Of a stretch of DNA of 64,000 nt, positions 15,361 through 53,301 are shown piece by piece. Numbering within the stretch: position 1 is the first letter of the stretch; each line of letters begins with the position of its first letter. A program made the translations under genes and the position numbers. The notes below the pieces were generated by a model that saw only the letters and a list, made by a program, of their open reading frames with translations, had not been told where the DNA came from and made no database searches. Source of the DNA: Mermis nigrescens (lineage: Eukaryota; Nematoda; Enoplea; Mermithida; Mermithidae); the NCBI GenBank assembly GCA_036768485.1, contig JAVLUZ010000157.1, positions 9,785,358 through 9,849,357 of the forward strand, given 5' to 3'.

Positions 15361-16285
15361 TAATGTAAATACATGAGTGCCCTATGTATACGGGATCAAC
15401 ATAGGACACGGATGTATTTGCCTTCGAGAGTTACTTACGTACGTAGGTACTTAAGTCTACGCTTAGCGCTGGTCCAGATCGCGCAGCCTGGGATCGCTTT
15501 CGATCTTTGGACCCTTACAGACCCTACGGCTTCGATCCCCTCAGCCCTAATATTGCTGGCTGCTTCTGGTCGGGTGATCTCAGCAGCTACGCCCTAGGAC
15601 CTAAGGCTACTTACCTAGTCTCGAATTTGCCGCGGAGGTCAGTTGACCTATCTCAAAGCTCAAGTTGAATATTTAACTTCTTTTCAAGGTTCGATTCTAA
15701 CATAAATGTTTTTGGTTCCTAATACGTGTAGCACAATAAACTTTGGAAACAACAACATTGAGCTCTACACTGATCAATCATCCCTAAGATTAAATAATAT
15801 TTTTGATTAATTTTAGGTTTGAGGAAAGAATTAAGACTTTCAAATAAAAATAGCAATCATACGGAAATTACCTATCCTTCCACTCTGATGAGCTGAAATC
15901 CTCGACATGGGCAATTACCGACCTCGGTATATCCAAAGACTCCTGGGTAGGTTTTTCTCTAATTTATTTCGAACGAAGAATCCACGGCCTGTAGCCGGAC
16001 AACCAAATAAAGCAAAAGAAAAACGAAAACGTACGGACTATACACACGTACGGGTGGCCAACAAGACTGCCAACAACACTAACTACATTGGCCTCAAGAG
16101 ACCATTACAGTGAAATAAACAAAGATCAAATTAACGTAATACTGATCATGAAGGAATAGTTTTGAAAAATGAGCTTGCTAAGCGAGAGTTGTAAACTAAG
16201 AGGAACTTAAAGTTTAAACCTACCATTAAATTATAAAGATAATAATGAAAGATTTAAAGCTTTAAGAAAAGAAAAATGTGGTAAA

Positions 16286-16690
16286 TCAAAACAAATTTAA
16301 AGGATATGATGAAACATTATTGTTGAGAATAGGACGATCACATGCTATATATAATGACTCCTTGATTAAAAGATCAAAAGAGTTGGATGCTAGACTGATA
16401 ACCTTTAAGCAATCTGATGTAATTGGATGATTGCTATTTGAGATATGTTTGTGAATAGCAGATAAACTATCACCCTGAATTGGCTTTCCTGTAGCAAATG
16501 AGATGCCAGTATGCTCTGCCATTCCACTCCCAAAATGTCGGCGAGTTTCACCGATGTAACTAGCCATACAGCTAGAACACGTATACTTATATACTAAATT
16601 TGAGAGTAGCTTAGCAGGTACAGCATCCTGGTTCTTGAAAAACCGGCTGATACACATAACAGGTTTGTAAACAAACCTTACTCTAATCTG
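16286..16690 (-). pseudogene. Penelope-like GIY-YIG endonuclease fragment, left arm
   Basis: The fragment encodes the C-terminal nuclease of a Penelope-like retroelement. Visible are IRVRFVYKPV, CxxC in YTCSSCMASYIGE, the YIG of the GIY-YIG core, TRRHFGSGMAEH with the catalytic-type Arg/His/Glu surroundings, a second half with LLIKES and DRPILNN, and a stop after NLF. The nuclease nicks target DNA during retrotransposition. The frame is open here but its 5' continuation is cut by a MITE at 16712, and the RT half is missing, so it cannot act alone. Confidence 0.85.
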
Positions 16691-16711
16691 AGGGTAAAAT
16701 GCAGATATAAC

Positions 16712-16990
16712 CATAGGTGGGCAGCACCGAAATTCTGGGGGGGGGTGAAAAAATTTCTGGGGGGGGGGTGAAAAATTTTTAAAGGTCAAAAAATGGTCTT
16801 AAAAGTGGTCGTATGTCAAAAAACACCATTTTTCGACGTTTCTCATCAAGCTCTATCCAATGGCATCAAAAAATTGCTGAAAAAGCAAAAAAAAAATTTT
16901 TCTGGGGGGGGGGGGTATTTTGATTTCTGGGGGGGTATTTCAACTTCTGGGGGGTGTATACCCCCCAAACCCCCCCCACGCCCATGTGTG
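16712..16990 (+). mobile_element. MITE, family A, inside the Penelope-like arm
   Basis: It starts CATAGGTGGGCAGCACC and ends CGCCCATGTGTG. The exact 8-mer GATATAAC flanks it (16704-16711, 16991-16998). The right-hand Penelope arm has a single uninterrupted GATATAAC equivalent (GTTATATC at 17180-17187), so the empty site is preserved next door. It carries four G-runs of 6-13. Confidence 0.95.
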
Positions 16991-17129
16991 GATATAACCT
17001 TTAGAATTCTGCTGCGTACATTGTAGCCATGCACACCAGTGTAAGGCAAAACAAGAGAATAGCATAGTTTATCACACACAAATTTTATGTCAAATTTGGG
17101 TGTGATAAACTATGCTATTCTCTTTGTTT

Positions 17130-17605
17130 TGCCTTACACTGGTGTGCATGGCTACAATGTACGCAGCAGAATTCTAAAGGTTATATCTGCATTTTACCCT
17201 CAGATTAGAGTAAGGTTTGTTTACAAACCTGTTATGTGTATCAGCCGGTTTTTCAAGAACAAGGATGCTGTACCTGCTAAGCTACTCTCAAATTTAGTAT
17301 ATAAGTATACGTGTTCTAGCTGTATGGCTAGTTACATCGGTGAAACTCGCCGACATTTTGGGAGTAGAATGGCAGAGCATACTGGCATCTCATTTGCTAC
17401 AGGAAAGCCAATTCAGGGTGATAGTTTATCTGCTATTCACAAACATATCTGAAATAGCAATCATCCAATTACATCAGATTGCTTCAAGGTTATCAGTCGA
17501 GCATCCAACTCTTTTGATCTTTTAATCAAGGAGTCATTATACATAGCATGTGATCGTCCTATTCTCAACAATAATGTTTCATCATATCCTTTAAATTTGT
17601 TTTAA
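17130..17605 (+). pseudogene. Penelope-like GIY-YIG endonuclease fragment, right arm
   Basis: This is the mirror copy of the left arm with the same YTCSSCMASYIGETRRHF core and the same C-terminus ending NLF. It is broken by an in-frame TGA at 17451-17453, where the left arm reads Ser. A few other substitutions (for example SRMAEH against SGMAEH) separate the arms. There is no RT domain upstream; the frame begins near the palindrome centre. Confidence 0.85.
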
Positions 17606-18001
17606 TTTACCACATTTTTCTTTTTCTTAAAGCTTAAAATCTTTTATTATTATCTTTATAATTTAATGGTAGGTTTAAACTTTAAGTTCCTCTTAGTTTA
17701 CAACTCTCGCTTAGCAAGCTCATTTTTCATAACGTAATACTGATACACTTTTATCTCAGATCGAATATTCTCGATTACTACAAGCGGTATGCATTAAACA
17801 ATTACTATTATCATACACTTGACTCTATGTTACCGGACAAGTATCTTATTGTTTTTTATTATTGAAAATTGGGGAAAAGTGGGAAGACCGAAGGCATAGC
17901 CCACAGTACAATATCGTAGATAGCTACTAGTATTGGCTATGTGATGGCTACCGCGAACTGCTAAGGCAAGTTCGCCTATATGTGTAACTCTCGCAGTTAC
18001 A

Positions 18002-18681: not shown

Positions 18682-20490
18682 TCAGGACGAAAAACGAAAA
18701 ATGGTGAAAAAGCTGCTGGTCGAATTTGACGCCGTTCGCGGAGTTCCAAAAAAGTTCTGTACATTGAACTTGTGAATTAATATTGATCCTGATAATAGGC
18801 CTTTGAGCCACGCTGGTTTTCCGCGACGTCGTTGACATTGAAAATAATCACGATCCGATTCAGGTTCGCGACGCGTATTCGAACGCTCGCGATACTGGTA
18901 TGGCAATTGCCTACGCCCGTACATATGTTGGCGTAAGCGTTGATGTGGATCAACTGGACGATTGTCGTCCTCAAAGTCATCGTTGTCCTCGTAGTTGTCC
19001 ACGTAACGACGCGGTATAGATTGCGCTGGAGTGAATAATTGCTCCGGAGTAAAACCAAAAGTTTGTTCACGTGAAGTTTTGCGTGGACGCTGTTGTGATT
19101 GCGTAACAGGCCACAGTTTTGGCAATACTGGACCTGGTCAAGGTTGTGGTTGGTAGACCCGGTGGTGATTGATCTTGTTCCAATGTGAACAATACGATTG
19201 ATCCCATTGTTGTTGTTGGCGGGATTGTGACCGGTCCTGATGAGTTCCGCGGTTCAAGTGTGGCAGTCGGCAATATTCATAAGGCTGCTGCTGTCGCGGG
19301 CGCAACAGATGACCAGCATTGGCCTGTGAATATGCCTCGGAACGCTGACGCGATTCTGTAAATTGCTATTGCGGCGGTTGGGTCTGCGGTCGTGTATGTT
19401 GCTGTATATGTGGTTTTACTGGTGCCTGTGATTGTACTTGTGATTGTGAGCGATGATGCATTTGAGCATAATGTTGCCGGTATGATTGTGGTTCTTGCCG
19501 CTTAGATCCTCTTTGGCTTAAACGTGCTCGTAATTTAGCTGTGACTTCAGCTTGAACAAGTCTTCTGACTCGTTGCTTTTCTAAATTCTTTAACCGACGC
19601 AAGGTATGCTCGGATTTTGTATCATAAAATCGATTCAATTTAGCCTTATGTTCATCTTCCGACATATGATGAACTTCTGAGCTTTCAGCAAGAGAACCGG
19701 TGGCGCGTAATTTTGTCGCACGCCTTGGCATCTCTGAAGCCAGATTTTCACAATCGCGTTGTTCAATTGTCATGCGTGCTCTGCGCATTTCGATTTGTGC
19801 CTCCAGAGATAGATCGACTTTGGGCATATCAAGGCTTGCTAAGGATCCACTTGGGTCCTGCAAGGATGCCTGCCGTCTCTCTTTTTGAACTTTCTCTAAC
19901 TCGCCTTGAATTCGGTGTTTAAGGTAAAACACAGATTTTTGGCGACCTCGGAAGTCAAATTGAACCGGAACTTCAAGTGGCGGATTGGTTGCTAACCAAA
20001 TTTGACGAATCATGTTAAGTAAAACGTTTGGACTTTTGATTCGCCTCGTTAACTCCGGGAATCCCGGGAAGGCCTCTCTTGGCAAAGGTGTGTAAGATTT
20101 GCCAAGGAAAACTACGCGCAACATACGACGTAGCTGCTCCACCATGCGCCAGCCTATCGCGGCATTGCCGTAGGCATACGCATAAAAGTGGAACTTTCTG
20201 TCCAAAAATTCCAATAGCACTCTAGCGTGCATGACGTCTATTGTGGAGAAGATTGTCATGAGTTGATACTCCGAATCATATAACGATTGAAACTCTCGGA
20301 AGGTATCAAAAATATCAACCATTTGACGCGTCGATATTAAGACTGGCGCTAATTGATCTGGCGCTGGTGACATTCTGTGCGGTAAAAATTCTGGAAGAAT
20401 CTGGTGCGCAACGCCATCAGTCACCACACTCGGTGCGTCGAGGTGTGGATGGACTACCAGGTACTGTAAAGGAACTTCGTACAGCATCAT
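18682..20490 (-). pseudogene. ORF4 of element 1: novel conserved domain plus basic tail
   Basis: ORF4 starts at the ATG that overlaps the ORF3 stop (ATGA, 20487-20490) and is open to 19366, about 375 codons. The first 210 residues are conserved with element 2: an MxYEVPxQY-like start, MVDIFDTFREF, an aromatic stretch FHFYAYAYG, GWRMVEQLRRMLR, YTPLPREAFPGFPEL and a WLATNPPLEVPVQF end. A Lys/Arg/Glu-rich coiled region and Gln/His/Pro tail follow. Further basic coding sequence in other frames (18682-19273; for example RERSNTRREPESDRDY) suggests frameshifts near 19370 and 19100. I do not recognise the family. Arg/Gln-rich tails suggest nucleic-acid binding; that is inference. Confidence 0.7.
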
Positions 20491-22927
20491 TCCGGTTGTA
20501 ATGAAAAACCGGGTGTGCACAAAAATTGGTCAGGGTAAAATAATCGGTTAAAAACGCTCATTTTGCTGATAAATTGAGGTGCCGGCGCACGATCGACATC
20601 AGCTAAAGGTTGTGCGATTGTAGACCAAACTAAAGGACGCAAGGGTGTGTCAGTCGTAGCCGCGTAATGCAGATGTGCTGCGTACACCCGGTCAAAGTGC
20701 ACTTGGGCGCACTCGACCAACTGGTCGTACAGACGCGTTCCTGCGACTTCACCCAGATAAGAGCGTAACTCGTGCAATACGTCAGGCGCAATATAGCACG
20801 GTGCTTCACGCGTCATTTTCTACATCATGTTGAAAAAATGTTGCACATAACGCGAGCAATTTTGAACTCTCGCGTTCTCTTCTGCGGATACGCGTTCGCA
20901 TATGGCTTGAATATGCGCAGGTACTGCGACTTCTAAATTCGACGGTGGATTTTGAATAACCTGTGGTTGAATATTCGCCACGGTATTTGACACTCCCGTC
21001 ATGGCCATAGGAGCCGTAAAATGAGTAGTAGGTGCCACTGAAGTCGACACGCCTTGTGGCGCGGAGTGGGACGCGATTTGCGTGGACAACGCTGCTTGCT
21101 GTACTTCCTGTGCAGGTAGAGAGCGTTGAGGTGGCGGTGGGAAGCCTATAATTTCTGTCATGATAACGTCGGGTTCAGGTTGACGCTCTACCCAATCCAA
21201 CTGAGAAGTCGGTAAAAGTAGGAGCGAACTGAAGCCCAAGGGTGCCTGCTGGTCTGCCACAAGCGATTGTGAAACAATCGGTTGCGAAACGGTAGTAGCC
21301 CCTTTTCGAGCCATTGCCGCGCGTGTGGTACGCGGTGGCAACAAGTTTGCTTGCCTTTTGGCCTCAGCGTCGGATAACACCATGACTAAATGTTTAGGAG
21401 ACAAATCGTCGTGTTCTGCGGACACAGATTGTTCAATTCCAACCATAGGAGAATTGTAAGGAATATCAGTTTGTGAAGAAATCACAGAAGCTGGGGTACT
21501 TGAGCTGGTTGGTTTGGACTTAGGTTCGGTATCAGGCGCATGAACCGGGCCCAAAACTGAGTCGGCAACGGCCTGCAATCCCTGAACTTTTAGATCAGGA
21601 TTATCAAAAACATTAGTATGAGCCAACACTTCCATTACAGAGGCAATGGTGGTGGCTGCAGCTATGGCCGCTGGTGGTTGCGGAGCTGGTCCGTAAAAGT
21701 CCTCTACTGTGACTAACGCTCCGCCATCAGAATCAATGGAGACATCAGTCGCCGTACTGGTTGACTGGCCCCGTGATGGCTTGCGAGATGACAATGGTAT
21801 ACGCTGTCTGGTTTTCGGTTCGCTAGCTTTAACGTGTGATTCGTTGCCTTTAAATGAAATTGGCATAGGTTTTCTATCCTCGGTAATGCGATTATTTTGC
21901 GAGCAGCCTTCTATCAATATGAAAACATTGATAATTATCAGGGCATTCATCGCTAAATAATGTTGCATATCCCGAGTTAGTGGTAAACTCCACGCCTGTC
22001 CAAAATTATCAGGCGCGTTGGGATCAATAGCCATGTCAAAGAAAAATTCAGCCAAGCGCTTTAAAGTATGTGAATGCGCTGTAATATGGAGATGGCGAGT
22101 GAACAATCTCGCCAAAGGCTGAATATTGATAAAATTTGCACTAAACGGATCTTTCCAATGCCGTTGATTTCGAATCTCGGCATCAGGAATTGCCGAAATT
22201 TCTTCAAAAGTTGAGCCGTAAACATGAAAATACGCAAGTTTGTCTTGCGTAGGGTCGTAACAGACCATATATACGTTTGGTAGACGCGTTTCAAGCAGCT
22301 GATGAAGCCCAAACGGAGGTTTTGGGAACTTAGCAATGTCCCAGCAGAACACATGACTGTTCGCGCTAGCAATTTGGACATAGCGAACAAATGGGCCATG
22401 GAGGTCCTCATAGGTGGGACATAGCTGCTTAAAACGCAAATCCCAGGTCTTATAAGTTCTGCCTTTTCTGTCATTCACAAATTCCGAATCGTAGCCTAAG
22501 AATAAGGTGCCATTTGTCATGTTTGATGGCTGGATCAAAGCCAAAACAGCCTCAAAAGACTCCTGGTCATTGGTGATTAAAACAGTGGATAGATAGTCTC
22601 TTCTTTGGCACACGTAGGGCAGCCAAAGGGAATCTATCAAACCTGTTCTCCCACCAGAGCTCTTGGTCATTTATACGTTTACTGTGATTTGTGGCTACAT
22701 GTGATGTTTTATGCTCTATCATTTTTGCAGTAAGTGCTTCTAGACCGCCAACACGACTGTCATCATTTTGTGGCAGCGGGTCTGGAAGAACCAACCCCCG
22801 CTCCAAAGCCATATTAGTCAAAGCCGAACAAAACTCATCTAGGGACGCGGGATCACGCCCTCAAATTTGAATCGGCGACCAGCTGCTTCCAGCAATGCCT
22901 CCTCGTTGGGGTACCTTCAGCAGCCAT
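20487..22927 (-). pseudogene. ORF3 of element 1: DEDDy 3'-5' exonuclease-like protein in env position
   Basis: The probable ATG at 22927 overlaps the pol end in another frame. Exo I is LFLGYDSEFVND (Asp and Glu). Exo II is the Asp in DPTQDKLAYFHVYG. A SHTLKRLAEFFFD helix leads to exo III AWSLPLTRDMQHYLAMNA, where the usual YxxxD ends in Asn. This is the order and spacing of the RNase D/WRN/MUT-7 class. A Pro/Ser/Thr-rich linker follows, then a C-terminal segment conserved with element 2. Frameshifts lie near 22860 and 22600. An in-frame TAG at 20820-20822 interrupts a region that aligns without a break to element 2, so the original was probably one protein of about 800 residues. Confidence 0.75.
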
Positions 22928-23345
22928 GGGTCTGCAAAAGGGAAAACATTAGATAATGGTACGGCATGTGCTGTTTTAGAGCCATTTAATAAACGTATAG
23001 GCGCGCAGTCCTTAGCTTTTTGTTCCCTGCCCGGTAAATCCTCAAAACTTATGACTACTGCCGGGGCGAGAGGGCGATGTGGTAATTTTACCAAAACAAA
23101 ATCGCCAGGGACATACACATGCTTTTCTACAATTAAATCTGAGTACGGTAATTTGGGCTCAGGCAGAAGTCTATTCCGGTGAACGAGATGAGTGATCAGA
23201 GGATTATAGACATATGCGATTTTCGCAGTTTCAGGAGTAGGTAAATCAATAATTCTATATGGACCAACACGTTTGGGTGATAGTTTACCGATTTCAGGTT
23301 GAATTACTGAGGTATTATTAAGGTAAACTATATCCGAGAGAGAAA
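22861..23345 (-). pseudogene. Pol C-terminus of element 1: GPY/F module and PWWP/Tudor-like domain
   Basis: This continues integrase after a frameshift near 23340. It has PEIGKLSPK, the GPYRI hallmark of the GPY/F module, and a HLVHRNRLLP segment. A second module follows: YVPGDFVLVKLPHRPLAPAV, then VISFEDL, then a variable loop and VPLSNVFPF. GDxVxxKxxxxPxxPAxV followed by a late VPLxxxxPF matches the layout of PWWP/Tudor-type chromatin-reader folds. Such modules steer integration in chromoviruses. Element 2 carries the same module. The frame ends soon after the hidden ORF3 ATG. Confidence 0.6.
22932..22960 (-). promoter_or_regulatory. Splice-acceptor-like site before the ORF3 ATG, element 1
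   Basis: The minus strand reads CTAATG, a pyrimidine run TTTTCCCTTTTGCAG, then ACCC and the ORF3 ATG. Element 2 has the same layout with the same 4-nt spacing. It would let ORF3 be made from a spliced subgenomic RNA as env is. The stretch also encodes the conserved PF(A)(D/E)PW of the pol tail, which could explain the conservation. Confidence 0.4.
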
Positions 23346-25514
23346 AATTTGTTTGATTACTGACTTATTATATTGAGATTTTTGCTGCTTACGCGCTTGA
23401 GCTAAGTTTTGAGACGCGATTTCGTGTAGATCTTGTAAAGTCAGCTTTAAGTCAATGACATATTTTTCCGCAACAGATGGTAAATTTGGATTCATCACAA
23501 AGTCATTTATGAGTAGAGTGTCAAGGGGAAATGCTGGTTCGCGACCATAAAGCATTTCAAAAGGAGATATATTAATTGATGATTGTGGAGTCGCGCGGTA
23601 TGCAAATAAAGCAAAAGGTAGAAATTGCTCCCAATCATACTTAGATCGCGCACTCAGCTTAGACAAACCATCAATCAAAGTGCGATTATAACGTTCCACC
23701 AACCCATCACACTGGGGGTGAAATGGGGTTGTAAATATTTTTTGAACGTTTAATAGTTTACAAACTTCAGAAATAAGGGTAGATGTAAAGTTTGACCCCT
23801 GATCTGTCAAAATTTTCTTGGGAACTCCATAACATGGTATAATTTCTCTTAGTAATAAATTTGCGATTGTTGTTGCTTTTATGTCAGAAACAGCGAAAGC
23901 TTCCACGTATTTGGTAAAATAATCCATAAAAACTAGAATTTGGTCATTTCCGGAGGGAGATCGCGGCATATGCAAACAATCACACGCAATAAGTTCAATG
24001 GGCGTGGATACTTCAATTGGTTGCAGTGGAACGGATGTGGAATTTAATGCGACCTTACGTTGTAAGCACACATCACAATTCCTACACCACGCGATCACAT
24101 CATTTTCCATGCGCGGCCACCAATAACGCATTTGTATGGCGGGCAAGATTTTGCGCGATGAAAAATGAGCTCCGAAAATAGAGTCATGAAATTCGGTTAA
24201 TATAAAGCGACGCAAAGATTTGGGTATGACTATTTGATGTACGACAGTTGGTGAACGTTTAGGTTGGAATCTACAAAAAAGAACATCGTTTACGAGAAAA
24301 AATTCGTCACAATATTTTTTCGTTGTTAAATCATTTAATGCGATGCGAATTTTATGTAATTTGTCATCTGCACGTTGCTCAGTGAGTAAACGCGCAGGTG
24401 TTAGCATTTCAGCTTTTTCAGCATCGGTAAGTAATAGGCGTTCACAAAATGTAGGTGGTTTTGTATTGGTAGGATCGATTTGCGCAGTAGGATTATTATT
24501 TTGCGCATTTGGATGATTAATTGGTGCAGTAGGCGCATTATCGCGCAATCGGTCAGGTGGAACCGATTCATCATCTGACTCAGAATCTTCCGATTCTAAA
24601 TTTGCGATGTTAACGACATTTTTGCGTTCAAGTTTATATTTTCGTTCTGCATGATTGTATTTAGGGTGTCGTGAAAGAAGATCAGCTGCGCAGTTATATG
24701 CACCAGGAACATAAACGATATCATATTCATATTCTTGTAATTTGAGACCCCAACGGCGTAAACGACTCGATGGGTCTTTAACGTTTACAAGCCACGTTAA
24801 TGCTTGATGATCAGTTTTGACGATGAATTTTTTACCGTAAAGATAATGTCGATAATGCTTGATGGCCCACACTACCGCTAACGCTTCTTTTTCCGAAGTA
24901 GCATAGTTACATTTGGCAGAATTTAGCACGCGACTAGCGTAGCTAAGAATAAAACGATTTTTGGATGGTAAATGTTTTTGTGTCAAAATAGCACCTAACG
25001 CGTAATTACTCGCGTCAGTTGTTAAAATAAATTGGTGCTCATCGTCAAATTTTGGTAATTGCAAAATAGGTGGGGATGTAAATGCTTTCTTCAGAAGCTC
25101 AAAGGCGGTTTGGTGTTCAGCCTTCCAGCAAAATTCGACATCTTTACAAAGAAGATGGAATAACGTTTTAGCGATTTTAGCAAGATCTTTAACTAATTTT
25201 TTAAACCATTGGACTAAGCCAAGGAATTTTTGCAAAGATTTAACGGTTTTTGGTACGGGAAACGAGATTAAATCTGCGACTTTGGACATATCAGGAGCGA
25301 TGCCCATTGCACTTATGTTGTGGCCAAGAAATTTTACCTCTGCATGCGCAAGATGGCATTTATCAGGCTTTACACGTAAGTTTGCTTTTTTAAGAGCAAG
25401 AAAGACATTCTCAAGATCTTTTAAATGTTCTTTGAAAGTGCGTGAAAAAATAATTATGTCATCGATGTAAACGAGACAAGATTTCCAATTTAGACCTGCG
25501 AGCACGAGCTCCAT
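23328..25514 (-). pseudogene. Pol of element 1: RT thumb/palm end, RNase H, integrase
   Basis: This is a 728-codon open stretch. The RT catalytic box is LVYIDDIIIFSR (YIDD). RNase H shows LTTDASNYALGAIL, the Glu of SEKEALAVVWAI and TDHQALTWL. Integrase has the zinc motif (HDSIFGAH, then CRNCDVC) and the DDE core: Asp in IACDCLHM, Asp in LTDQGSNF, Glu in GLVERYNRTL. The domain order is Ty3/Gypsy. At its 5' end a single extra base near 25512 separates it from the N-terminal RT frame; at its 3' end a frameshift near 23340 separates it from the GPY/F module. All catalytic residues are present. Confidence 0.92.
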
Positions 25515-27345
25515 TTAGTCTTTGAAAATCTGCGGGCGCATTTTTTAAACCAAAAGGTAAAACTTCAAATTCGTAATGACCAACAGGACATATGAATGCA
25601 GTTTTTTCGCGAGATTTATTATCGAGTGGAATTTGCCAGTATCCAGATTTTAAATCTAGTGTGCTAAAATATGCGGCATTGCCTAAGGTATCAAAATAAT
25701 TGTCTAATTGTGGAAGAGGATAAACTTGCGTTTTAGTAACGTCATTTAACCGTCGATAATCGACGACCGGCCTAAGGGAACCGTCCTTTTTTCCAATGAG
25801 AAATAATGGACTTGCCCATGGGCTGGTTGTAGGTCGAATAATTTTATCCGCTAGCATTTCATTTATAATTTTCTGCATAGATTCTCTTCTAGAATGTTCA
25901 ACACGATAAGTTTTTCCAACAATGGGCGGATTATCCCCTGTGTCAATATGATGTTTCATCAAGGGGGTACGTCCGAGAGGTTCGTTTTTTAATGCAAAAA
26001 TTGAGTCGTATTTTAAACATAGTTCACGAATTTGTTGCTGTTGTCTAGAATCAACGGCGGAGCCGTTTAAAGCTTTATTTATTGATGCAAAAAGTTCTGG
26101 TGTCCTATCATCAAAAGATGAAACATGTGACACAACTTCGGCATCAGAGGTTAAAGAACCTATTATTTCACCAGAGTCAATGCGAATTGGCGCTTTAGAG
26201 ATGTTACAAACGCGAACAGGTATTAAAGGTTGTGAAGCATCGACTATAGACAGAGCAACAAAAAGTGAAGTTCTTTCCATAAAATCGGGATTTGGTTCAA
26301 ATAATGCGAAATCAAAATTGCAAGAACCGTGACTTATATAGCCAGGTGTAATTAATTCATGCCTAGGTTGTATAATAACAGGCTCAGGTAACGAAACATG
26401 CACACACACAACACCAGAGGTAGTTGTGTTGGGTTTTGTGCGAAATTGCAATTTTTCATGAGATGAGAGTAAATTAACCTTTATGCCGTTTATAAAAGCA
26501 CAGCGCTCAATAGGATTAACCCACATGAGTGCGGATTCGCAAAAATCATATCCTAAGAGCATGTCTTCCGGCAAATGATCAATTATAGCTACTGAGGTAG
26601 AAATAGATTGTTCCGCGATAGTTAAAGTCATATTTACTTTATAACGAACTACAGCGGTGATTTCGCCTACACCATGTACGACTTGTGAGACTTGTTTAGG
26701 TGGTAAATTAAAACCAAGACGTAAGAATGCAGACGTGGTCATCATGGTGACCTGTGAACCCGTATCTATGAGAGCAGGTACATCAACGCCGTGAACTTTA
26801 ACAAGAATGGTGGGTAAATTTGTCCCAGCATGGCTTACAATAGGAATATTAGGATCTAAAGTCTTAGATGGAGGTAGATTGATTTTTTCATAAGTTGCGA
26901 GACGACGTTGTAAACGTTCGTACTCTTCGAGAAATTCTTGCGACGCGAATAGATTGGGACGCACGCTAGATTCTGGCCCTTTCGCAGTAACCGTGTTTAC
27001 ATCATGAGGAGATGTAAGGGTTGGCTGCGGTGGGGGCACATTCATGGTGGGTTGGTTATCCGCAGTGTATGTGACATAAGGGCGATTAAAATTGTTGTCG
27101 CTGCGGTAATTTGAATTATAGTATGTACCACGCTGTTCATTTGGGAATTGCACAAAAGGTGTATTTTGTCGCAATTGATTATTATAACGATTATTGTAAC
27201 GCGAATTTTGATAATTAGCACGCGAATTTTGGTAATAATCATTACGATTTTGCCTAAAATTTGATCGTGTTTGCTTAGAATCAAAACGATTATCATTATT
27301 TGCATAGTTAGATGAACGATGTTGACTAGAGTTACGATATCGTGA
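25459..27345 (-). pseudogene. Pol of element 1: protease and N-terminal reverse transcriptase
   Basis: The retropepsin-type protease has ALIDTGSQVTMM (DTG active site) and a later PEDMLLGYDFC second-strand motif. RT begins at SPWASPLFLIGKKDGSLRPV with FSTLDLKSGYWQIPL (first catalytic Asp) and GHYEFEVLPFGLKNAPADFQ. The upstream Asn/Arg/Tyr-rich stretch continues from gag. The frame upstream of 27174 runs back to an in-frame TGA near 27350. Gag and pol are in the same frame here, separated by the gag TGA (27448-27450) and that second TGA, whereas in element 2 they are in different frames. Confidence 0.9.
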
Positions 27346-27447
27346 GTGAGATCAATGTCTACTTTGCGAATTCGAACGCGATGGCGAACGATTTTGACAC
27401 GAAAAAGAACGCAACTGGCTGCAATTGCGAGCCATAGAATTATTACT

Positions 27448-29656
27448 TCAATCAGGTTGGGTATTATGATTAGCATTATTAGACGCTTCTTGTCTCTGAT
27501 GCATGAAACATTCCTCATAGATATGACCTATGCGCTTGCAAAAGGTACAATATTTACGAGAGGAACTTTCTGGTTTCTCAGCACGCGACGAGCGATGAAA
27601 CGTTCTATGACGCGAACGATTTGAATCATTTTGGTTAGATGCGTGAGGAGTATCTTTAGGTACTGCGCTGCCTACGGGAGCAGCTGTTACCGATACATAA
27701 GGTGTTACTGCCTTTTTATCCTCAAATTCTTTATTAGCAAATTCAGCGCTTAGCGCATTGTCCAAAAATTCAGCCAATGATGCTCTAGGCTTTTTATGAT
27801 ATGCCTCTTTCGAAATGTGTGGTAATAAACCTTCTTTTAATTGATGTCGCATCAAATTATTGAAATGATGCGAGTCAACTTCTAGATAAGGATCAGATTT
27901 AATTAGCTCTTCGCGAAGCGAGAGATAATAAGCTTTAACCGATTTGTTAGGCTGCTGTTTATGATTCAAAAAACGATTAAAGAGCGCACCGGTGTCCATT
28001 GGACAAAATTCGGTTATTAGCGCTTGTTTCATTTTCGAATAAGATTGTTGTATATCAGCAGGTAACGAACGGTATAAACGCATAGCATAGGGATCAAGAA
28101 ATCCAGTTGCGAATTTTAAACGATCAGCTTTGTCGATATCATAGGTATCGGCAAGCGATTCAAATTCTGCAAAATATGCTTTTATATCCGTTTTATCTCC
28201 ATCAAAAAATTTTTTGTTAGCAATTGCAATTTGCATTTGTGTTAAAAATGGTCCGCAATTCAAGGAATCAGCGAGACGCGATCCACCACGCGAGCCTTCA
28301 GATGAAGAATCTGAACTATAGCGGTGACGTCGTCTGCGCGATCTACTTTTGCGACGCGAGCGACGACTGCGCGGGCGATCATAGCTATTAGATGAGCTTT
28401 CATCAGAAAATTTAACATGTCTTCTCCTACTAGATGATTCAGGTAGAGGTGCAGATTCATTTTGCAAATTTGCAGATTCATTGTTAATACCAGATAGATT
28501 TATCTCAACAGGTTGCATCTCGATATTAGAAGAATGCAAAATAGGATTATTAGGTGGTATTTCCACATTCACAGGATTAGGTACATAATTATTTGGAAAA
28601 ATTTCGCCTTGAGGTGGAAAATATTGCAGCGGTGGTGGATTTAACTGCTGCTGCGAGTTCGCATTCAAAGAATTAGGTACGAAGGAAGGCGCATTACGAT
28701 TTAAAGACAGCGGCGGCTGAGATCGCGACGTCTGCAAAATCGGTACCGACGGCTGCGAAATCGTAGGTATATTTTCCGAAAAACCCGAGTTTTGCACTGG
28801 TTGCAAACCCGTGTTTAAAGGATTCTGTGACAAATTAGATATCTCAGGCGCGCGATTTGTACAATTTTGAGACGATATTTTCAGGAATAGTTTCCGAAGG
28901 TGAGCGTGAATTTGATACGCTGTTGCCAGTGGACAACAGTGAAGATGCACGATGCGTACTTTGCGCACGATTCACACTTTGCGCATTAAATTCAGAAAAA
29001 TTTGCGCTATCGATTGAGTGGTTAACACGCTCAGATGGATTACTCTCTATGCGATTCGAAACTGGTTGGGGTTTAAGCATAGTGCTTAGCTCCAAACGCA
29101 GTTTACGCATTTCATCCGCATTTTCCTTTTTATCTTGATCAACGCGCGTAGAAAGGTCCAAAAATTGCAAATGAATAGCTTGTAGCGCTTTTAAAATAAG
29201 ATCATTAGTCACATTAGCATTAGCACGCTCTTCGTCGGCATTTATGCTATGACTATGATTACTTTCTACATCAGAATCGGGATTTTCGCGCTCCGAACTG
29301 GTTTCAGGATTATTTGCCGTGTTAAGAGTAGTCGTATTATCAATCATTGTATGATTAGATGAATTGTCAATGTTAGGGTCCGATCTAGTTATCGAAGTTT
29401 GATTAATGCGCGATCACATGGTACTCAATAACAGTTCATCTTCAGACTGTGTATTGCTCGCGGCATTTAGTGACGCGGGTAATTTATCATTACTCGCCTT
29501 ACTAGTTACGTCTTTCGTATTTGTGTCATTACTCGCAGAATTACTCGCGCTATTAGAGTCAACAGGCGCGGTGGGTAATTGGCGAGATGAAGTAGGTGGC
29601 ATAGAAGGTTTTTTCAATTTAGCGGGCGGTGTCCGCAAAACCTTTTTTCCTGCCAT
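27448..29656 (-). pseudogene. Gag polyprotein of element 1
   Basis: It begins MAGKKVLRTPPAK, like element 2 (MGGKKILRTPPAK). A long Asn/Ser/Gln/Pro-rich N-terminal region, a Ser/Arg tract (RSRRSRRKSRSRRRRHR) and a capsid-like region follow. The capsid-like region has FFDGDKTDIKAYFAEFESLA and a HKQQPNKSVKAYYLSLREEL major-homology-like stretch. A CCHC zinc knuckle (CTFCKRIGHIYEEC) precedes the stop. A TGA at about 29414-29416 and a frameshift near 28850 break the frame. Gag packages the element RNA into cytoplasmic particles. Confidence 0.88.
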
Positions 29657-30238: not shown

Positions 30239-30239
30239 G

Positions 30240-31295
30240 TGTAAATACATGGGCTGCCCTATGTATACAGGAATCAACATAGGACAGGGATGTATTTGCC
30301 TTCGAGAGTTACTTAGGTACGTAGGTACTTAAGTCTACGCTTAGCGCTGGTCCCGATCGCGCAGCCTGGGATCGCTTTCGATCTTTGGACCCTTACAGAC
30401 CCTACGGCTTTGATCCCCTCAGCCCTAATATTGCTGGCTGCTTCTGGTCGGGTGATCTCAGCAGCTATGCCCTAAGACCTAAGGCTACTTACCTAATCTC
30501 GGAATTTGCCGCAGAGGTCAGTTGACCTATCTCAAAGCTCAAGTTGAATATTTAACTTCTTTTCTAAGGTTCGATGTCTGATCATGAAATGTTTTTGGTT
30601 CCTAATACGTGTAGCACAATAAACTTTGAAAACAACAACATTGAGCTCTACACTGATCAATCATCCCTAAAGATTAAATAATATTTTTGATCAATTTTAG
30701 GTTTGAGGAAAGAATTAAGACTTTCAAATAAAACTAAGCAATCATACGGAAATTACCTATCCTTCCACTCTGATGAGTTGAAATCCTCGACGTGGGCAAT
30801 TACCGACCTAACCCTCGGTATATCCAAAAACCCCTGGGTAGGTTTTTCTCTAATTTATTTCGAACGAAGAATCCACGGCCTGTAGCCGGACAACCAAATA
30901 AAGCAAAAAGAAAAACGAAAACGTACGGACTATACACACGTACGGTGGCCAACAAGACTGCCAACAACACTAACTACACTGGCCTCAAGAGACCATTACA
31001 GTAAAATAAACAAAGATCAAATTAACGTAATACTGATACACTTTTATCTCAGATCGAATATTCTCGATTACTACAAGCGGTATGCATTAAACAATTACTA
31101 TTATCATACACTTAACTCTATGTTACCGGACAAGTATCTTATTGTTTTTTATTATTGAAAATTGGGGAAAAAGTGGGAAGACCGAAGGCATAGCCCACAG
31201 TACACTATCGTAGATAGCTACGAGTATTGGCTATGTGATGGCTACCGCGAACTGCTAAGGCAAGTTCGCCTATACGTGTAACTCTCGCAGTTACA
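30240..31295 (-). repeat. 5' LTR of element 1
   Basis: It is 1056 bp with TGTA...TACA ends. It is nearly identical to the two pieces of the 3' LTR and clearly related to the solo LTR at 53302-54346. It should carry the promoter and polyadenylation signals; an AATAAA-type site is present on the minus strand near 31147. Confidence 0.93.
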
Positions 31296-42906: not shown

Positions 42907-43217
42907 CTATGTCAATTTTCGTGCCAGCTGGTGGTCAGTTATGCCATAATAGCACTAATCTTGTTCTCCTATGTCACTGACTTTCAGGAAAACATCGTAG
43001 ATAAGCTATTTTCTGTCCAACTTTATTTATTAGTTTATGACACGGTCTTACTGACTGCGCATCTGCTAAAAAATTTTATATTAGCGTGTGGTTTTTATTC
43101 ACAGAAGGAATTATCACAAATATGGATGCCAATCTTTGCTCAAATAAGAGACGAACAGTCCTTGAAGTACCTCCTAATGTTTATGTGCAACGCATTCTCG
43201 ACATATTCAAAAATTAA

Positions 43218-43745
43218 CATAAAAAAGAACGGTAAACCGGGCATAAAATTTGAAACATGTTTTAAAATCAGTAAGATTTTCTCTATCTAAAAAATCTATT
43301 CTCGTTGTTGTAACGACCCGTTAACAGGTCTAAAAATGCGACTGAAGTTGGACAACAAAATTTTTTATATGAGCCTGAATATCATGTGTTAAAATGGAGA
43401 CTACTACAAAATAACTTCCATCAGTAAGTAGATTGTCCATTTTTCTATTAAGTAATTATAATTTCATGAAAAACGAAGAAGTATTGATGGAGTTATTAAA
43501 AATATTCGAAAACAGACATTTTTCGCAAAAATTCAAAACCCGGAACTTTGATGCTTGGTATAAAAGCCCAGGAGCATTTTTGTAAAGTTTTACTTTACAC
43601 GTTTTCATCTGGTACCAAGACCTACCGATGGACGAAATTTCATTTGTTTCTGCGACAGGTCATCGGGACCGAATGTGCGAATCTTACCGGCAGTTGCTCA
43701 TAATCTATTTCACGAAACCTTGTGCATGAAAATCAATTTTCAGCG
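43218..43745 (-). repeat. Right arm of the old inverted repeat
   Basis: Inverse partner of 40380-40885. It is copied again within 58696-59913 as part of the segmental duplication. Confidence 0.75.
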
Positions 43746-44132
43746 TTCAAACAAGTAGCTACAAAATGGCTTCTAAGCAGGTTACTGTAACACAATTCGG
43801 CATAATTGAACTTAATGTGCTCATCAGTTGCTGTGCACAGTATTGTGATTGTTACATCAGTTTAAACTATTATTATAATCGATTTAGATCAATTCAAAAA
43901 TTGTAATCCATGCACTCATTGCAAAAGGTTACGTGAAATAGACTAGTCTATTTCATATAAGTTTCGGCGAAAATTTTGTTCTAAGCTGAAAGTACAAGTT
44001 AATGTGAAATGGACTATATGCAACTTATTCCATGAAAATCAAACAAATGCCTACACAATCCCAACTAACACATGTAAAATAACTTCACGGAACCTCGTGC
44101 ATGGGTCACAAGAGTACAATTTCGCTTCATTA

Positions 44133-45362
44133 TGTAACTCAGGTGGGTTCCGTCCGCCTTCGAGTTATTGGAGTATCTTAGCGCGCGCAAACGAGTTGGC
44201 TGATTCAGCACTTGAAGTATGTACGGATAAATAAACTGACAGCACGCCGTCAGAGAAGATACCCAACACACAACAACTACGAAAGCAGCGAACCCTCGTA
44301 AGTACCTTCGGGATTTACCTAAGTACCTATGCTACACCTAGCGCTGGTCAAGAAGCTGCGGTAAAAACCTGCACTCTTCCAAGCTGACCCTGAATACAAA
44401 CTACCTAAAATCTCCACGGACGTAATTGGTCCGGTACCTATGGAGAAAAAGGGAAGGAGATGCCGACCGCAGATCTTAACCAGGGGTAATTAGATAATCC
44501 CGGTATTCGCCCTAGGTCCTTAGACCTTTTTAGACCAAAAGAGTAATTTTTCGCGAAAAGAATTGAAAGGGTTTCGCACTAGATTACCTATGGCGAAACT
44601 ACTTACGATTTCTGGTTCCAACAGCACTCTGTACTTAAAACACAACAACAAAGAGCTCTATTCCGGGCTGTCATCTACTATAAAAATTATGTAATAATTT
44701 TTATAGATTTTTGGATTGAAAAAGGAATTATGAATTTTGCACAAAACGATAAATAAAAACTTTACCCAACGAAATCCGGCAAGAAATAAAGCTATGGCCG
44801 GCCTGATCCCAATTCCTGACTGCTTGCGATATAATGCACCCCTAAGCAGTGGATTTTTGTGCTTTTACCGAATTAAAACAATGAACAACAAATGGCGCTA
44901 ATATAGTCGAAGATGACACGCCGCAAAAGCAAAAGCCAAACTGGCACCAACTAACTAATAATCCTAAGGGGGATTGGCCCACAGTAATAGAAGAAGAAAT
45001 TATTGTAAAATGTGTTTATGACAAAAATTGTGTGCTACTTGCACATAGATTTTCCAGGTCTCCGCACAGGCTCAACGTGAATAGCGGTCATGTCGCCTAT
45101 GTTTTAAATGTGAAAAGTGATAGGGGACTTGTGGGGTGTTCCACAGTAAAAAGGTCGCATCATAGTATCCCTCGCGACACCTAGCGACAAGAGTCCAACC
45201 AATTGACACTGCGTGGTCGGAATGCCTCCGCATGTCATATCGTCGATCTGAAAATATGGCTGGGTCGCCAAAGTGGAAACACACGACCGGATGGTCTGAA
45301 TTGGCGCACTAAGGTGCGCAAAGGCCGTACATGTAACGGCTCGTGTAGATACACTATCTACA
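44133..45362 (-). repeat. 3' LTR of element 2
   Basis: It is 1230 bp and almost identical to 59914-61143; about half a dozen substitutions are visible. It is preceded by the 4-bp target duplication ATTA. Confidence 0.93.
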
Positions 45363-45897: not shown

Positions 45898-47703
45898 TCA
45901 ACGGCGTTTATGGTCGGGTTTCGACGTCGGAAAGAAACCAGACGATCGAATCGAGCAACGCAACGAGTCACTCGAGTCCGTAGAGCGACGATTTGACGGG
46001 CGATCCTCATCCAATAAATTTATGCACGGTTGCATGCGTTCGCGCAAGCTACGATGTTCGTCGTACGAAACGGCATCGGGCGATGGTGCTTCGAATCCAT
46101 AATAAACTCGTGGTTGACTAGACGGAGTAGCCGGACGGCGGAACTCCTCGAACCTTTGATCACGGCGCGGTGGAGAAGGAAAGCGCCCAAAACTGCCGGA
46201 TTCATGCGAAGGAGAGCGCGAATGGTATGGTTGTGGTTGTGGTTGACCCCAAAACTCATTTGACCGGGAGATTGAACGGCGTTCGTGTTGCGGCCGATCG
46301 AGACTAACGGTTGACTGCGGCGACCAACGCGTTGGTGATGGGCGACGCCCAACGCCTTCGCGTTGACGCTGTGGCGAACGCTGCTGCGACGATTCAAATT
46401 GCCGCTGTTGATAACCGCCAACGTTGTCAGCCGACCGCTGCAACCAATGCGTCGGTAATGAGCCACGCCCAAAACCTTCGTGTTGATGCAACAGCGACCT
46501 TTGGCGCTGCACTGCTCGCGGCGGCGGGGTTGAACGCGGCCGGTGTTGCTGCGTTGGCCGCTGCTGCAATTGCTCACGCGGCGTTGACGCTGCCGGTAAC
46601 TGGGGCAAATTCTGTCTGAAACGAGACAAAGAAGAGGGTCCGGGTTCGTTTTCAGATGGCTTCGATAATAACGCCACTTGGCGATAGATCATCACTTGCC
46701 TTTCGCGTCGCTCTCGTCGTTTTTGATTGGCACGCATAGCTCGTTGAGTATGTTCATATTTATTCCGGATGTATCAGCTGGCCTTTAATAAAGGAATGGC
46801 TTCGTGATAGGATCGTAAGCGTTCCATGTACGCGTTCTCATCCTCACGTCTTATTTCAGAGGCCACGGCTAAAGAGCCTGGCTTACGTGCAACAGTAACG
46901 CGTGGCAATGGCGGCATCGGTTGAGTTTCACGATCGGCTTTCTCAATTATCATTCGGGCCTGGCGTAAGTCGATCTGAGCCTGTAAGGAAAGATCTGAAA
47001 CGTTTTGTCGTTTCTTCGCTTGGGGGCCACTTGGGTCCTCCGCATCAGCGAGTCATTTGTGCGATTGGTGTCTCTGCTGGTTTTGACAAATATTGTTCAA
47101 TTCGTCAGGCAGTTTTTTCAGAAGATAATGCGTAGAGTGTTGGCGCGATTTGTGACGACCAAATTGAGCAGGCACCGTTAAGTCAGGATCTGTGGCTTTG
47201 CGAATTAGCTGAATATCGCAATGTAGCACAACCGGATCCTCAATTTCTTCCGCTAACTCAGGAAATTCTACAAAGGCTTCCCTCGGAAATTGAGTATACG
47301 TCGGACCAAAGAAGGCGGCACGAAGCATCCGTTGAATCTGTTCACACATTCGCCAGGCAATTCCAGGATCGCCATACAACGTCGCGAAAATGAAGAAACG
47401 TTGATCTAAATAGTGCAACAGTGATGTAGCTTGCAACACGTGCGCAGTAGCGAACACCGGTTCGCGGCTGAAAGTGGTTTCGTATCCTCTCTCGAATTCA
47501 CGGAACGCTTTGAAAATATCAACCATTAGCCGCATCGTCAAACACAACGGCGCCATATGATCAGGCTGAGGCTGGATACGATGGGGAAAGAACTCAGGCC
47601 GAATTGTGACACCGAGTCAAATGTTCATTTGCGGCAGCGTCGGCTGAAAAGAATGGTTTGCGACGTATTGGATGTTTACTTCGTAGACCATATAACCAGT
47701 CAT
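45898..47703 (-). pseudogene. ORF4 of element 2: novel conserved domain plus Arg/Gln/Ser tail
   Basis: The start is the ATG at 47701-47703, overlapping the ORF3 stop as ATGA. The N-terminal part (MVYEVNIQYV) aligns with element 1 and is followed by an in-frame TGA near 47618. The conserved domain then reads LMVDIFKAFREFERGYE, YGDPGIAWRMCEQIQRMLR, FFGPTYTQFPREAFVEFPEL and DPDLTVPAQFG. Frameshifts lie near 47050 and 46750. The tail to 45898 is rich in Arg, Gln, Ser and Pro with RSPS/RSPQ motifs. I know no family with this signature. A nucleic-acid-binding or particle role is only a guess from composition. Confidence 0.7.
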
Positions 47704-50060
47704 GATAAAATGCGATTTTGCGTAAACAACGGATCTAGATAGAACTGGCAGTGAAAGACAGAGGGCTGCATAATAAAACGCGGCGCAACCCAATTCCTAA
47801 ATGCCTCTTCTGGATCCGGATCCGTGGGCAAGCATAGCGGAATGATTGGCCTCTCCGGCGGATTAGAGATTCGACAATACTGCAAATAACGGGCGTACAT
47901 CGAGTTGTAACACAGTTGAATGTCAGTACGCAAATCTGTGTACAGTTCCAAACCTGCTTCTGGTCCAAGCCAATCGCCAAAATTGAGAAAATTATGGATA
48001 GACAGGCAAGGTTGACCTGTTTCCTGCAATTCTTGCATGGTTTCCTGAAAATAATTCTGCGTAAGCGGTTGTTTGCCGTTGTTCCTCGTTATCCTGCACC
48101 TGAATTGGCTGTTCAGCCGGAGTTAGGACAACTGGTTCCGTCGGTTGTGGCTGCGTAATTCAAGGAATACGCGTCAACGGCAAAGGCTCGGCGGCAAAAG
48201 GCAACGTCATTGAGGCCATGATATTTTGGATATCCGTCGGCGCCGAGTAAGCAGGCGGAGGAGGAGCCACTGAAGCTGGAACAGCTTGTAAGGGCTCAAA
48301 ACGCGATTTTCGAGTACGTGCCGGTTGAGAGACCAAAGGCAAATTTTCGACATCCAGGGGCCGACCTAACGGGGCGCTGGTTGCGGCCACAACTGGAACC
48401 CTATCTAAAACGTTTGTATCCATTGGTTCAGGCACATTACGCGATGTGGAAGGCAAATTAGCAATAATACCATTGAGAACTTGTTGCTGCATCGGCGATG
48501 GCGAACGCTGCGACGGCGGCGGAAATGGCGGCCTACCCTGGTCATCTAACTCATAGCCATCTAAAATAATCATCGTCGGATCCTCGCCGTCCGAATCAGC
48601 TGTCAATGATCTGCGGAAATGTCATCGTATGGCTTTTCGCCTTTGTTTCATATTGGGCGGTAATTTCGACAGCTTGATGTATAACAGCTCCGGCGGCGGC
48701 GCCGCCTGGACGGAACGTTCGTCACCCTCAAAAGTAAAACCTGGCGGAACACGATGAGGAGAAATTCGACTCATGTTTGGCGAATACATATCGATAAGAA
48801 TGTAGACATCGAGTGAGAAAATCGGGTCTAAAACGAGATACCGTAACATAGGACCCGTCAAAGGCATGTTCCATGCCTGGCCAATCCACGTGACCACACC
48901 TGGGCGTGGGGGGGGGTTTGGGGGTATGCACCCCCAGAAACCAAAATACCCCCCAGAAATCAAAATACCCCCCAGAATTCAATTTTTGAAAATTTTTTTC
49001 GTTTTTTTCGCAATTTTTTGATGCCAATGGATAGTGCTTGACGAGAAACGTCGAAAAATGGTGTTTTTATCGCCATACCACCATTTTTAAGGCCATTTTT
49101 CGACCTTCAAAAAAATCTTGCACCTCCCCCCAGAATTTTCTTGCTGCCCACGTATGCACGTGACTGCCGAAGAATCCGGCTGCATATCGAAGAAGAAAGC
49201 TGCCAACGTTTTTAGGCGATGATTTCTGGCATCGATACGATGTTTGACCATGAAAAAGCGGCTCATCACCAGCGTATCTAAAATATTGGCCCTGAAAACC
49301 AAACGCGGTGGAGGAAAGCTATCACGATTTTGTAAATAGGCCACTACATCTGCGCAATGTGGGCCGTAGACGTGAAAATAGGCAATCTTATCATTACTAG
49401 GATTGTGGCAGGCTAGAAAAACATCTCGCAGCTGTGTCTCAAGCAACTCCGCCAGCCCAAACGGGGGCTGTGGAAACCTAGAAATATCCCAAACAAAAAC
49501 ATGGCCACGAACATCGGCGATCTGAATGTATCAAACAAAAGGACCGTTGGCCTGCATGTAGTTGGGATCGAGTTGTTGCCAATATCGTTCCCAAACGCGG
49601 TAGGGCATGAACAAACGGTCGTTAACATTCTCGGAGTCAAAGCCAAAAAAGTACTGGCTGTTCAGACGATTAGACGACCTGAAAAGTGTTCGTATCGCGT
49701 TATAAGACTGTTCGTGTGTTTTGACCATTACGGTATGTCGAATGGCGTTTTTGGGCACATATGGCGCTGACAACGGGATACGGTCCATTGTTGCCAGCCA
49801 CCACTTATGTTGGGCATAGATACAATCGTAGTGGTGTGGCGTTTTGTGGTGTGATGGTTTGCAAAGATTGGGAGTCACGTGTTCGTCGTTTTGCAGTAAA
49901 GCATCTGTAAAGGGACTACGTCTGCGCGATACTGCTTTGCAGCAGCCGCAGCTTCGAGCGCTATGAGGAAATGGGCGGCATCGTTGTCGTTCCCGAGGCT
50001 AAACGTCGGACAAACTCGGTCCACGACGTCCTCTTCTGTTGGGGCACGCTGCTCAGCCAT
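47700..50060 (-). pseudogene. ORF3 of element 2: DEDDy 3'-5' exonuclease-like protein, split by a MITE
   Basis: The ATG at 50060 (GCCATGGCTG context) lies inside the pol tail in a different frame. Exo I is FFGFDSENVNDR; exo II is the Asp of NPSNDKIAYFHVYG; a DTLVMSRFF helix and HRLKTLAAFFFDM follow. Exo III is AWNMPLTGPMLRYLVLD, keeping the Tyr and the last Asp that element 1 has lost. So all four acidic residues plus Tyr of the DEDDy class are present. Damage: TGA near 49877, an in-frame stop near 49531, a 262-bp MITE at 48895, a stop near 48161 and a frameshift near 48045. A Pro/Ser linker and a conserved C-terminal segment (NFGDWLGPEAGLELY) follow. It ends at TGA 47700-47702. Confidence 0.78.
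48895..49156 (-). mobile_element. MITE, family A, inside the exonuclease-like ORF3
   Basis: It starts CACACCTGGGCGTGGG and ends GCCCACGTATG. The exact 8-mer CACGTGAC flanks it (48887-48894, 49157-49164). It falls between the exo II helix region and exo III. Element plus one target copy is 270 bp, a multiple of three, but stops within the MITE close the frame. Confidence 0.96.
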
Positions 50061-52886: not shown

Positions 52887-53301
52887 TTAAAAACAAAGGA
52901 CTGGCCCAGGGACTTGTTGTTGGTCTGATGACTTTTTCCGCGATCATTTCGTTTATTATTCGTTGCATGACTTGTCGGCGCGCGTGTTCGACATGATAAG
53001 TTTTACCTACAACAGGGGGATTATTCCCTGTGTCGATGTGATGTTTAATGAGCGGAGTGCGACCGAGTGGTTCGCCTTTTAAAGCGAATATCGAATTATA
53101 TTTATGACAAAGATCACGAATTTGCTGCTGTTCCTTAGAATTAGCGATGGAACCCTGTAAAGCCTTATTTATTGAGGAAAAAAGTTCGGGCGAGCGATTG
53201 TCTGAGACAGAAACATGAGATACGACCTCGACATCAGACGTTAGCGATCCAATTAGCTCTCCAGTGTCGACCTGAACGGGCGATTTCGAGATGTTACATA
53301 A
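52834..53301 (-). pseudogene. Pol of element 2: segment between protease and RT
   Basis: It encodes LCNISKSPVQVDTGELIGSL to SPWASPLFLIGKK and joins RT after a frameshift near 52870. Its upstream continuation was cut off by the solo LTR at 53302; the coding frame resumes beyond 54346. Confidence 0.85.

Follow-up and report, generated by a model that had tools for sequence, protein, structure and literature searches.

A putative divergent DEDDy exonuclease domain encoded in the env position by a large Ty3/Gypsy-type group in Mermis nigrescens

The two elements and their third open reading frames

The DNA analysed here (the window) is a stretch of 64,000 nucleotides from Mermis nigrescens, probably an insect-parasitic nematode (assembly GCA_036768485.1, contig JAVLUZ010000157.1, positions 9,785,358 to 9,849,357 of the forward strand). 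It contains two long terminal repeat (LTR) retrotransposons, which we term element 1 and element 2. Each has, after the integrase and in the position of env, a third open reading frame (ORF3), and related ORF3s occur across a large Ty3/Gypsy-type group in this genome. A well-supported interpretation of the sequences is that the product of this ORF3 bears a divergent version of the RNase D/WRN-type DEDDy exonuclease domain. Element 1 displays the order LTR-gag-protease-reverse transcriptase (RT)-RNase H-integrase of the Ty3/Gypsy LTR retrotransposons, and element 2 presents part of it (LTRs, gag and RT-RNase H-integrase). Their features in the window are:

About 15364 to 31295, minus strand: element 1 overall, LTRs 95-98% alike
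30240..31295, minus strand: element 1, 5' LTR (TG...CA), 95-98% identical to 15364-16146 plus 17730-18001
27451..28971, minus strand: element 1, gag (PF03732, E 5e-6)
23331..27351, minus strand: element 1, pol, split over two overlapping frame pieces that encode protease, RT, RNase H and integrase (Pfam, E up to 1)
22864..23364, minus strand: element 1, C-terminal part of integrase, overlapping the start of ORF3 (70% identity to element 2, 142 codons)
22932..22939, minus strand: element 1, acceptor-like TTTTGCAG just before the ORF3 ATG (22927)
18796..22927, minus strand: element 1, remains of ORF3, broken frame (tblastn with the open 1,390-codon frame L160: 22946-20505 and 20523-18796)
21885..22589, minus strand: element 1, DEDDy-like domain (motif positions and profile homology)
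22490-22482, minus strand: element 1, exo I DSE
22244-22242, minus strand: element 1, exo II Asp
21959-21957, minus strand: element 1, exo III Tyr
21947-21945, minus strand: element 1, Asn at the position of the exo III Asp
15364..18001, minus strand: element 1, 3' LTR (by LTR identity), split by an inverted-repeat insertion at about 16147-17729
58696..61143, minus strand: element 2, 5' LTR, 98.7% identical to 42907-45362
55563..56573, minus strand: element 2, gag (PF03732, E 3.2e-7)
50490..52886, minus strand: element 2, RT-RNase H-integrase, 79% identical to element 1 over 704 codons
50065..50072, minus strand: element 2, acceptor-like TTTTGCAG before the ORF3 ATG (50060)
46093..50060, minus strand: element 2, remains of ORF3 with stops, frame changes and an insertion (tblastn with open copies)
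48790..49812, minus strand: element 2, DEDDy-like domain in three pieces (49812-49534, 49530-49152, 48888-48790)
49638-49630, minus strand: element 2, exo I DSE
49392-49390, minus strand: element 2, exo II Asp
48840-48838 and 48828-48826, minus strand: element 2, exo III Tyr and Asp
42907..45362, minus strand: element 2, 3' LTR of the same pair

An earlier sequence-only reading of this DNA had described the elements as two lineages with unrelated LTRs. The LTRs indeed show no mutual match at E 1e-10 (in a comparison that excluded the outermost 643 bases of the 5' LTR of element 2), but the RT-RNase H-integrase regions are 79% identical in protein; hence, the two appear to be sister families rather than distant lineages. 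That reading had also reported exo I, exo II and exo III motifs in DEDDy order after the integrase of both elements, and these are present on the minus strand: DSE, YDPTQDKLAYFHVYG and PLTRDMQHYLAMN in element 1, and DSE, HNPSNDKIAYFHVYG and PLTGPMLRYLVLD in element 2. It had placed the frames at 20487-22927 and 47700-50060. The upper end of each coincides with the initial base of the ORF3 ATG, but these coordinates take in no more than the front portion of ORF3; similarity to open copies elsewhere in the genome extends to about 18796 in element 1 and about 46093 in element 2.

Both window copies of ORF3 are decayed. The frame of element 1 shifts between 22927 and 22670 and again near 20510, and it has a stop at 20820; that of element 2 is interrupted by a TGA at 49531-49533, by other stops and frame changes, and by a dispersed short repeat, GGGGG-rich at its ends, that lies within the domain at about 48890-49140. 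The exo III Asn of element 1 is seen in its family only in the window copy and an identical twin on contig C48, among 28 readable copies (30 fetched). At about 2.15-2.18 Mb this contig has identical matches to both window ORF3 queries with an equal spacing of 27,151 bp, which probably reflects either a haplotype left uncollapsed or a duplication of recent date. The twin may be explained by high heterozygosity: the published Mermis nigrescens assembly has 524,220,005 bp, 867 scaffolds, 84% repeats and a heterozygosity of 6.6% (PMC10989877).

In the genome as searched (523,963,438 bases in 860 contigs) the element 1 domain gave at least 150 scored matches, from 1,695 first-look candidates, and the element 2 piece likewise at least 150; these counts may contain both haplotypes of one site. 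The listed element 2 matches comprise its own family, then families of about 69, 60, 56 and 54% identity, and then the element-1 family at about 50%. Further copies with intact ORF3, for which the sequence-only reading had proposed a search, do exist: 32 of the 150 listed element 1 domain matches, counted by eye, lie in open frames of at least 1,388 codons.

In open copies ORF3 is a single frame of about 1,250-1,390 codons (7 of 30 loci were dropped from this set for want of one open full domain). It begins with an ATG overlapping the end of pol, followed by an N-terminal part, the DEDDy domain at residues of about 120-350, a Pro/Ser-rich stretch, a conserved C-terminal region and a basic tail. 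The tail is Q/R/S-rich, with 150-residue segments at the end of ORF3 containing up to 25% Lys/Arg. The conserved C-terminal half (18796-20850 and 46093-48062 in the window) is 46% identical between the elements over 179 codons, and AlphaFold2 models the C-terminal region with a predicted local distance difference test score (pLDDT) of 39.4, too low to be informative. The alternative that this region forms an ORF4 of its own, overlapping through ATGA, was dropped because open copies carry one continuous ORF3.

Directly before the ATG, TTTTGCAG is retained in 58 of the 59 loci with a recognisable ORF3 start, among 78 loci examined in three families. This suggests that ORF3 might be expressed from a spliced mRNA with its acceptor at TTTTGCAG, and LTR retrotransposon ORF3s are said to be typically made from spliced messages (PMC5408684); an acceptor resembling it is reported for an exon of CERV, the env-position protein of Cer1 (PMC10309623). 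A point on the other side is that these bases are at the same time pol coding sequence (PFA-D/E-PW); their conservation is therefore suggestive and no proof of splicing.

Relationship of the ORF3 domain to DEDDy exonucleases

The DEDDy exonucleases (PF01612: RNase D, WRN, Rrp6/EXOSC10 and MUT-7) share with ORF3 the same five residues in the same order, and the PLTx5Yx3D spacing of ORF3 is exactly that of E. coli RNase D. In a joint alignment of seven sequences including E. coli RNase D (A6), the D, E, D, Y and D are invariant in all seven. The pattern PL[ST]x5Yx3[D/N] occurs twice in the 29,259 amino acids of stop-free window frames, both times in the ORF3s, against 0.045 expected from the shuffled mean, in a count that is post hoc, the pattern being derived from the finding itself.

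The relationship was assessed with hhalign against a DEDDy profile built from E. coli RNase D and enterobacterial relatives, EXOSC10, NrnC-type proteins and one consensus sequence. In this profile-profile comparison, of the kind that the sequence-only reading had proposed for the DSE to YxxxD region, the two-element alignment scored 30.2, a value reached by none of 300 column shuffles (maximum 21.3), the reversed query scoring 16.6. Without the consensus sequence the score was 28.0 (0/300 shuffles, maximum 23.0), while nine unrelated E. coli proteins, represented by 17 pieces, gave no more than 20.8. When 52 stop-free window pieces were compared singly, the element 2 domain came first (24.8) and that of element 1 second (20.8), with the next close behind at 20.4. 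A profile of 12 genome copies (A5) from several families, namely 8 of 54 full-domain pieces, L112 and three partial pieces, scored 30.9 (P 8.5e-4; 0/300 shuffles, maximum 26.3). PF01612 is the best Pfam family for the genome copies, matching 5 of the 12 members (best E 0.0026), and in the full ORF3 frames L160 and L143 it is the sole Pfam match at E up to 1.

The remaining distance is bridged by the ORF3s of a second Gypsy-type family of this genome. PF01612 has 22 matches over its cut-off in the genome: L163 (E 1.8e-15) looks like an exon of the host Rrp6/EXOSC10 gene, and the L161 and L162 frames reach 41 and 36.4 bits. An integrase with a GPY motif (rve E 1.9e-5, below its cut-off) precedes L161 by about 450 bases and is 38% identical over 282 residues to that of an element-1-family copy. 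Since this integrase with its GPY motif lies upstream, L161, the locus at which the context was read, occupies the ORF3 position of another Gypsy-type element. As an observation on this family (L161, L162 and L164), its DEDDy domain passes the PF01612 cut-off and has the WRN exonuclease as its closest solved relative by sequence (E 0.001). The ORF3 profile aligns with the L161/L162 pair at a score of 73.6 (P 3.6e-10; 0/200 shuffles, maximum 26.6), and the pair in turn with the cellular DEDDy profile (P 9.4e-9). Both families possess a long insert after exo I, ending in G-x-FVR-x-x-Q, and such an insert, lying between exo I and the strand that follows, occurs among the sequences compared in these two only.

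ORF3 is far closer to the L161/L162 family (P 3.6e-10) than to the cellular DEDDy profile (P 8.5e-4). The sequence-only reading had proposed that the domain was captured from a host gene; a recent capture of this kind is not supported, because the nearest relatives found for it are ORF3s that a different Gypsy-type family of this genome carries (host genes not being exhaustively searched).

Several results weigh against a DEDDy assignment. None of the 22 PF01612 places above the cut-off is among the listed places of element 1 or element 2 domain matches, and the printed PF01612 scores of the ORF3 copies reach at most 16.5 bits against a cut-off of 23.6, the bits of the best member (E 0.0026) not being among those printed. 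E. coli RNase D (15.8) or EXOSC10 (12.5), taken singly against the ORF3 profile, stay at noise level. The full frame L112 has no PF01612 match when scanned whole (its cut-out domain gives E 0.049) and no NCBIfam match, and profiles A2 and A5 recover no DEDD structure in PDB. AlphaFold2 modelled the domain with a pLDDT of 35.6 from a four-row alignment, and clustering of the acidic residues is not visible at such confidence. As the PF01612 score lies below the curated cut-off, we class the domain as a divergent relative rather than a member of PF01612.

For the window copies Pfam and PDB searches were empty, the domain being very divergent; PHROGs, phage and viral-contig searches yielded nothing usable, and in viral contigs the patterns used recovered neither a relative of E. 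coli RNase D nor one of L161. In NCBIfam element 2 had one weak DEDD match (E 0.0047, far under the cut-off) and element 1 had none. When ORF3 was aligned directly with RNase D alone by MAFFT, the middle came out misaligned, and this alignment was discarded. This want of any plain Pfam or PDB match is what could be said for a chance resemblance of the motifs, an explanation we consider barely credible: it is contradicted by the shuffle controls and the conserved catalytic residues, and is refuted, barring an artefact of the bridge alignment, by the P of 3.6e-10 to an ORF3 family that is itself PF01612-positive. In sum, homology of the ORF3 domain to the DEDDy exonucleases is strongly supported by these comparisons.

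The same homology bears on the alternative of ORF3 as an envelope or membrane fusion protein whose exonuclease likeness is incidental. ORF3 is placed after integrase with an acceptor-like start, as env genes are, and one of its 19-residue windows reaches a hydrophobicity of 1.68, slightly over the usual limit of 1.6. Yet this window lies inside the exo III helix and reaches only 1.49 in a third family, no env family is matched in Pfam scans of the full ORF3 frames, and three such frames examined by hydropathy and Pfam present no transmembrane fusion glycoprotein of the errantivirus type. We therefore regard an envelope function as very improbable.

Selection, catalytic residues and candidate functions

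ORF3 is clearly under purifying selection: the median ratio of nonsynonymous to synonymous substitution rates (dN/dS) is 0.069 in the element-1 family (161 pairs from 19 copies) and 0.136 in the element-2 family (165 pairs from 20 copies), in pairs that are not independent and with those of dS up to 0.05 omitted. The five catalytic residues, counted over copies with readable sites, are complete in 25 of 28 copies of the element-1 family (30 fetched) and in five of six from other families (14 fetched, excluding the element-1-family loci L154 and L158).

The element-2 family tells against a uniformly catalytic protein: only 15 of its 28 readable copies (30 fetched) have all five residues, and most of the shortfall is due to replacement of the exo II Asp by Asn in 12/30 copies (L120, L123, L124, L132, L134, L135 and L137-L142), some with long open frames. 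Four of these (L139-L142) have one identical score, which suggests recent multiplication, a pattern that haplotypes could also give. An absolute need for catalysis in this subfamily is disfavoured by the 12/30 count, and catalysis may be dispensable there.

These replacements are part of the evidence for the view that ORF3 is a pseudo-nuclease, in which the DEDDy fold would serve as a retained platform for RNA binding (as described for Maelstrom and EXD1) and the protein would act in the export, packaging or assembly of RNA of the element. The basic Q/R/S-rich tail is consistent with such a role; inactive RNA-binding derivatives of the DEDD fold are mentioned in the literature (PMC5408684), and the CERV protein of Cer1, a C. 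elegans Ty3/Gypsy element, is required for export of the genomic RNA (PMC10309623). Set against it are the intact residues of most element-1-family and other-family copies and the low dN/dS. As an account of ORF3 in general we think it a minority possibility, albeit one to be taken seriously.

The reading that we favour, with somewhat better than even confidence when taken whole, keeps an enzymatic role for most families. ORF3 would be made from a spliced subgenomic mRNA, in which a 5' leader is joined to TTTTGCAG/ACCCATGG, and its basic tail would bind element nucleic acid. In most families the divergent DEDDy domain would then trim the 3' ends of RNA or cDNA intermediates of the element, or of silencing-trigger RNAs, while in the exo II Asn subfamily ORF3 probably retains nucleic-acid binding only.

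A related proposal, also raised by the sequence-only reading, is counter-defence: ORF3 might degrade or trim host small RNAs or their templates and so oppose MUT-7-type silencing. MUT-7-family DEDDy relatives do act in germline small-RNA production (PMC11347159), and the element is abundant with many open frames. On the other hand, the high copy number is also consistent with simple weak silencing, and Pfam scans of three full ORF3 frames detect neither MUT7-C nor another silencing domain. We judge it improbable.

Neighbouring repeats and comparison with known systems

Beyond ORF3 the elements have several further features. The C-terminal part of the element 1 integrase (22864-23364) has a weak PWWP-like match (E 0.016), possibly a targeting module comparable to the chromodomain of chromoviruses; it was considered as an identity for this tail, and the match falls to E 0.22 in another copy (L104). 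The insertion at 16147-17729 in the element 1 LTR has inverted arms that are 97% complementary, and its frames presumably resemble a Penelope-type GIY-YIG endonuclease. Element 2 contains a nested LTR of an element-1-like family:

53299..54346, plus strand: LTR nested in element 2, 81% identical to the element 1 LTR and inverted relative to it

An additional partial copy of the element 2 LTR (58142-58701, 99.5% identical to 44133-44692) adjoins its 5' LTR. The dispersed GGGGG-ended repeat is also found at 41402-41461 and near 1548, 5344, 6203 and 10326, one of these further copies coming from a repeat search and the remainder from translated-frame likeness. At 37349-38841 Pro/Thr/Ser-rich repetitive frames on both strands have a minisatellite-like character.

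A parallel among nematode elements is CERV of Cer1, likewise an accessory protein in the env position of a Gypsy element. It is made from a spliced mRNA with a TTTCAG acceptor for exon 5 (TTGCAG in one species); it has 517 residues, the word exonuclease is absent from the main text of the paper, and the likeness to ORF3 is one of description (PMC10309623). DEDDy ORFs are also found in the bdelloid Athena elements and in Terminons, Penelope-like elements that belong to another class of retroelements (PMC6431247; PMC5408684).

The closest comparison is with the Juno and Vesta LTR retrotransposons of bdelloid rotifers, in which RNase D-like DEDDy ORF3s downstream of pol were described by Rodriguez, Kenefick and Arkhipova in 2017 (PMC5408684). 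Because of that description the layout itself is not new, and the statement of the sequence-only reading that no described Ty3/Gypsy lineage had it was wrong. As in Mermis, the ORF3 lies downstream of the integrase in more than one lineage, the element-borne frames are closer to each other than to cellular exonucleases, and one catalytic position is altered: the DEDD signature becomes DEED in Juno and Vesta, and the exo II residue is Asn in the Mermis subfamily. In our reading both changes concern exo II. For the bdelloid ORFs 3'-end processing was proposed and a role in silencing mentioned, both as hypotheses, and the roles suggested by the sequence-only reading come close to these; the benefit to the element was unclear, and the variation measured, in ORF3s of env and GDSL type, looked neutral (PMC5408684).

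The differences are equally distinct. A dUTPase lies between protease and RT in all Juno and Vesta elements, whereas none was found by Pfam in the pol pieces of element 1, the element scanned, at E up to 1; the Mermis ORF3, compared by description, is much longer, with an extra C-terminal region and the basic tail; and the host is a nematode in which the elements reach high copy number. A limited literature search found no earlier report of a DEDDy ORF3 in nematode elements. Hence, what is new is the variant and its host: a nematode, no dUTPase found, a long fused ORF3 and abundance.

A shared element-borne module fits these observations better than a one-off host capture. By extension, though we hold this as a doubtful conjecture, bdelloid and mermithid Gypsy-type elements may share an old DEDDy module of their own and not the products of repeated host capture; the giant nematode ORF3 would then let unusually long elements of about 14 kb multiply through editing of RNA or cDNA 3' ends or blunted small-RNA silencing, with one subfamily turning non-catalytic. 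In the nematode one family alone gives at least 150 scored matches, open frames are numerous, purifying selection is clear, and the exo II Asp is present in one sister subfamily and replaced in another; this makes the choice between enzyme, RNA binder and anti-silencing factor directly testable. The kind of ORF known from bdelloid rotifers is thereby recorded in what is probably another phylum.

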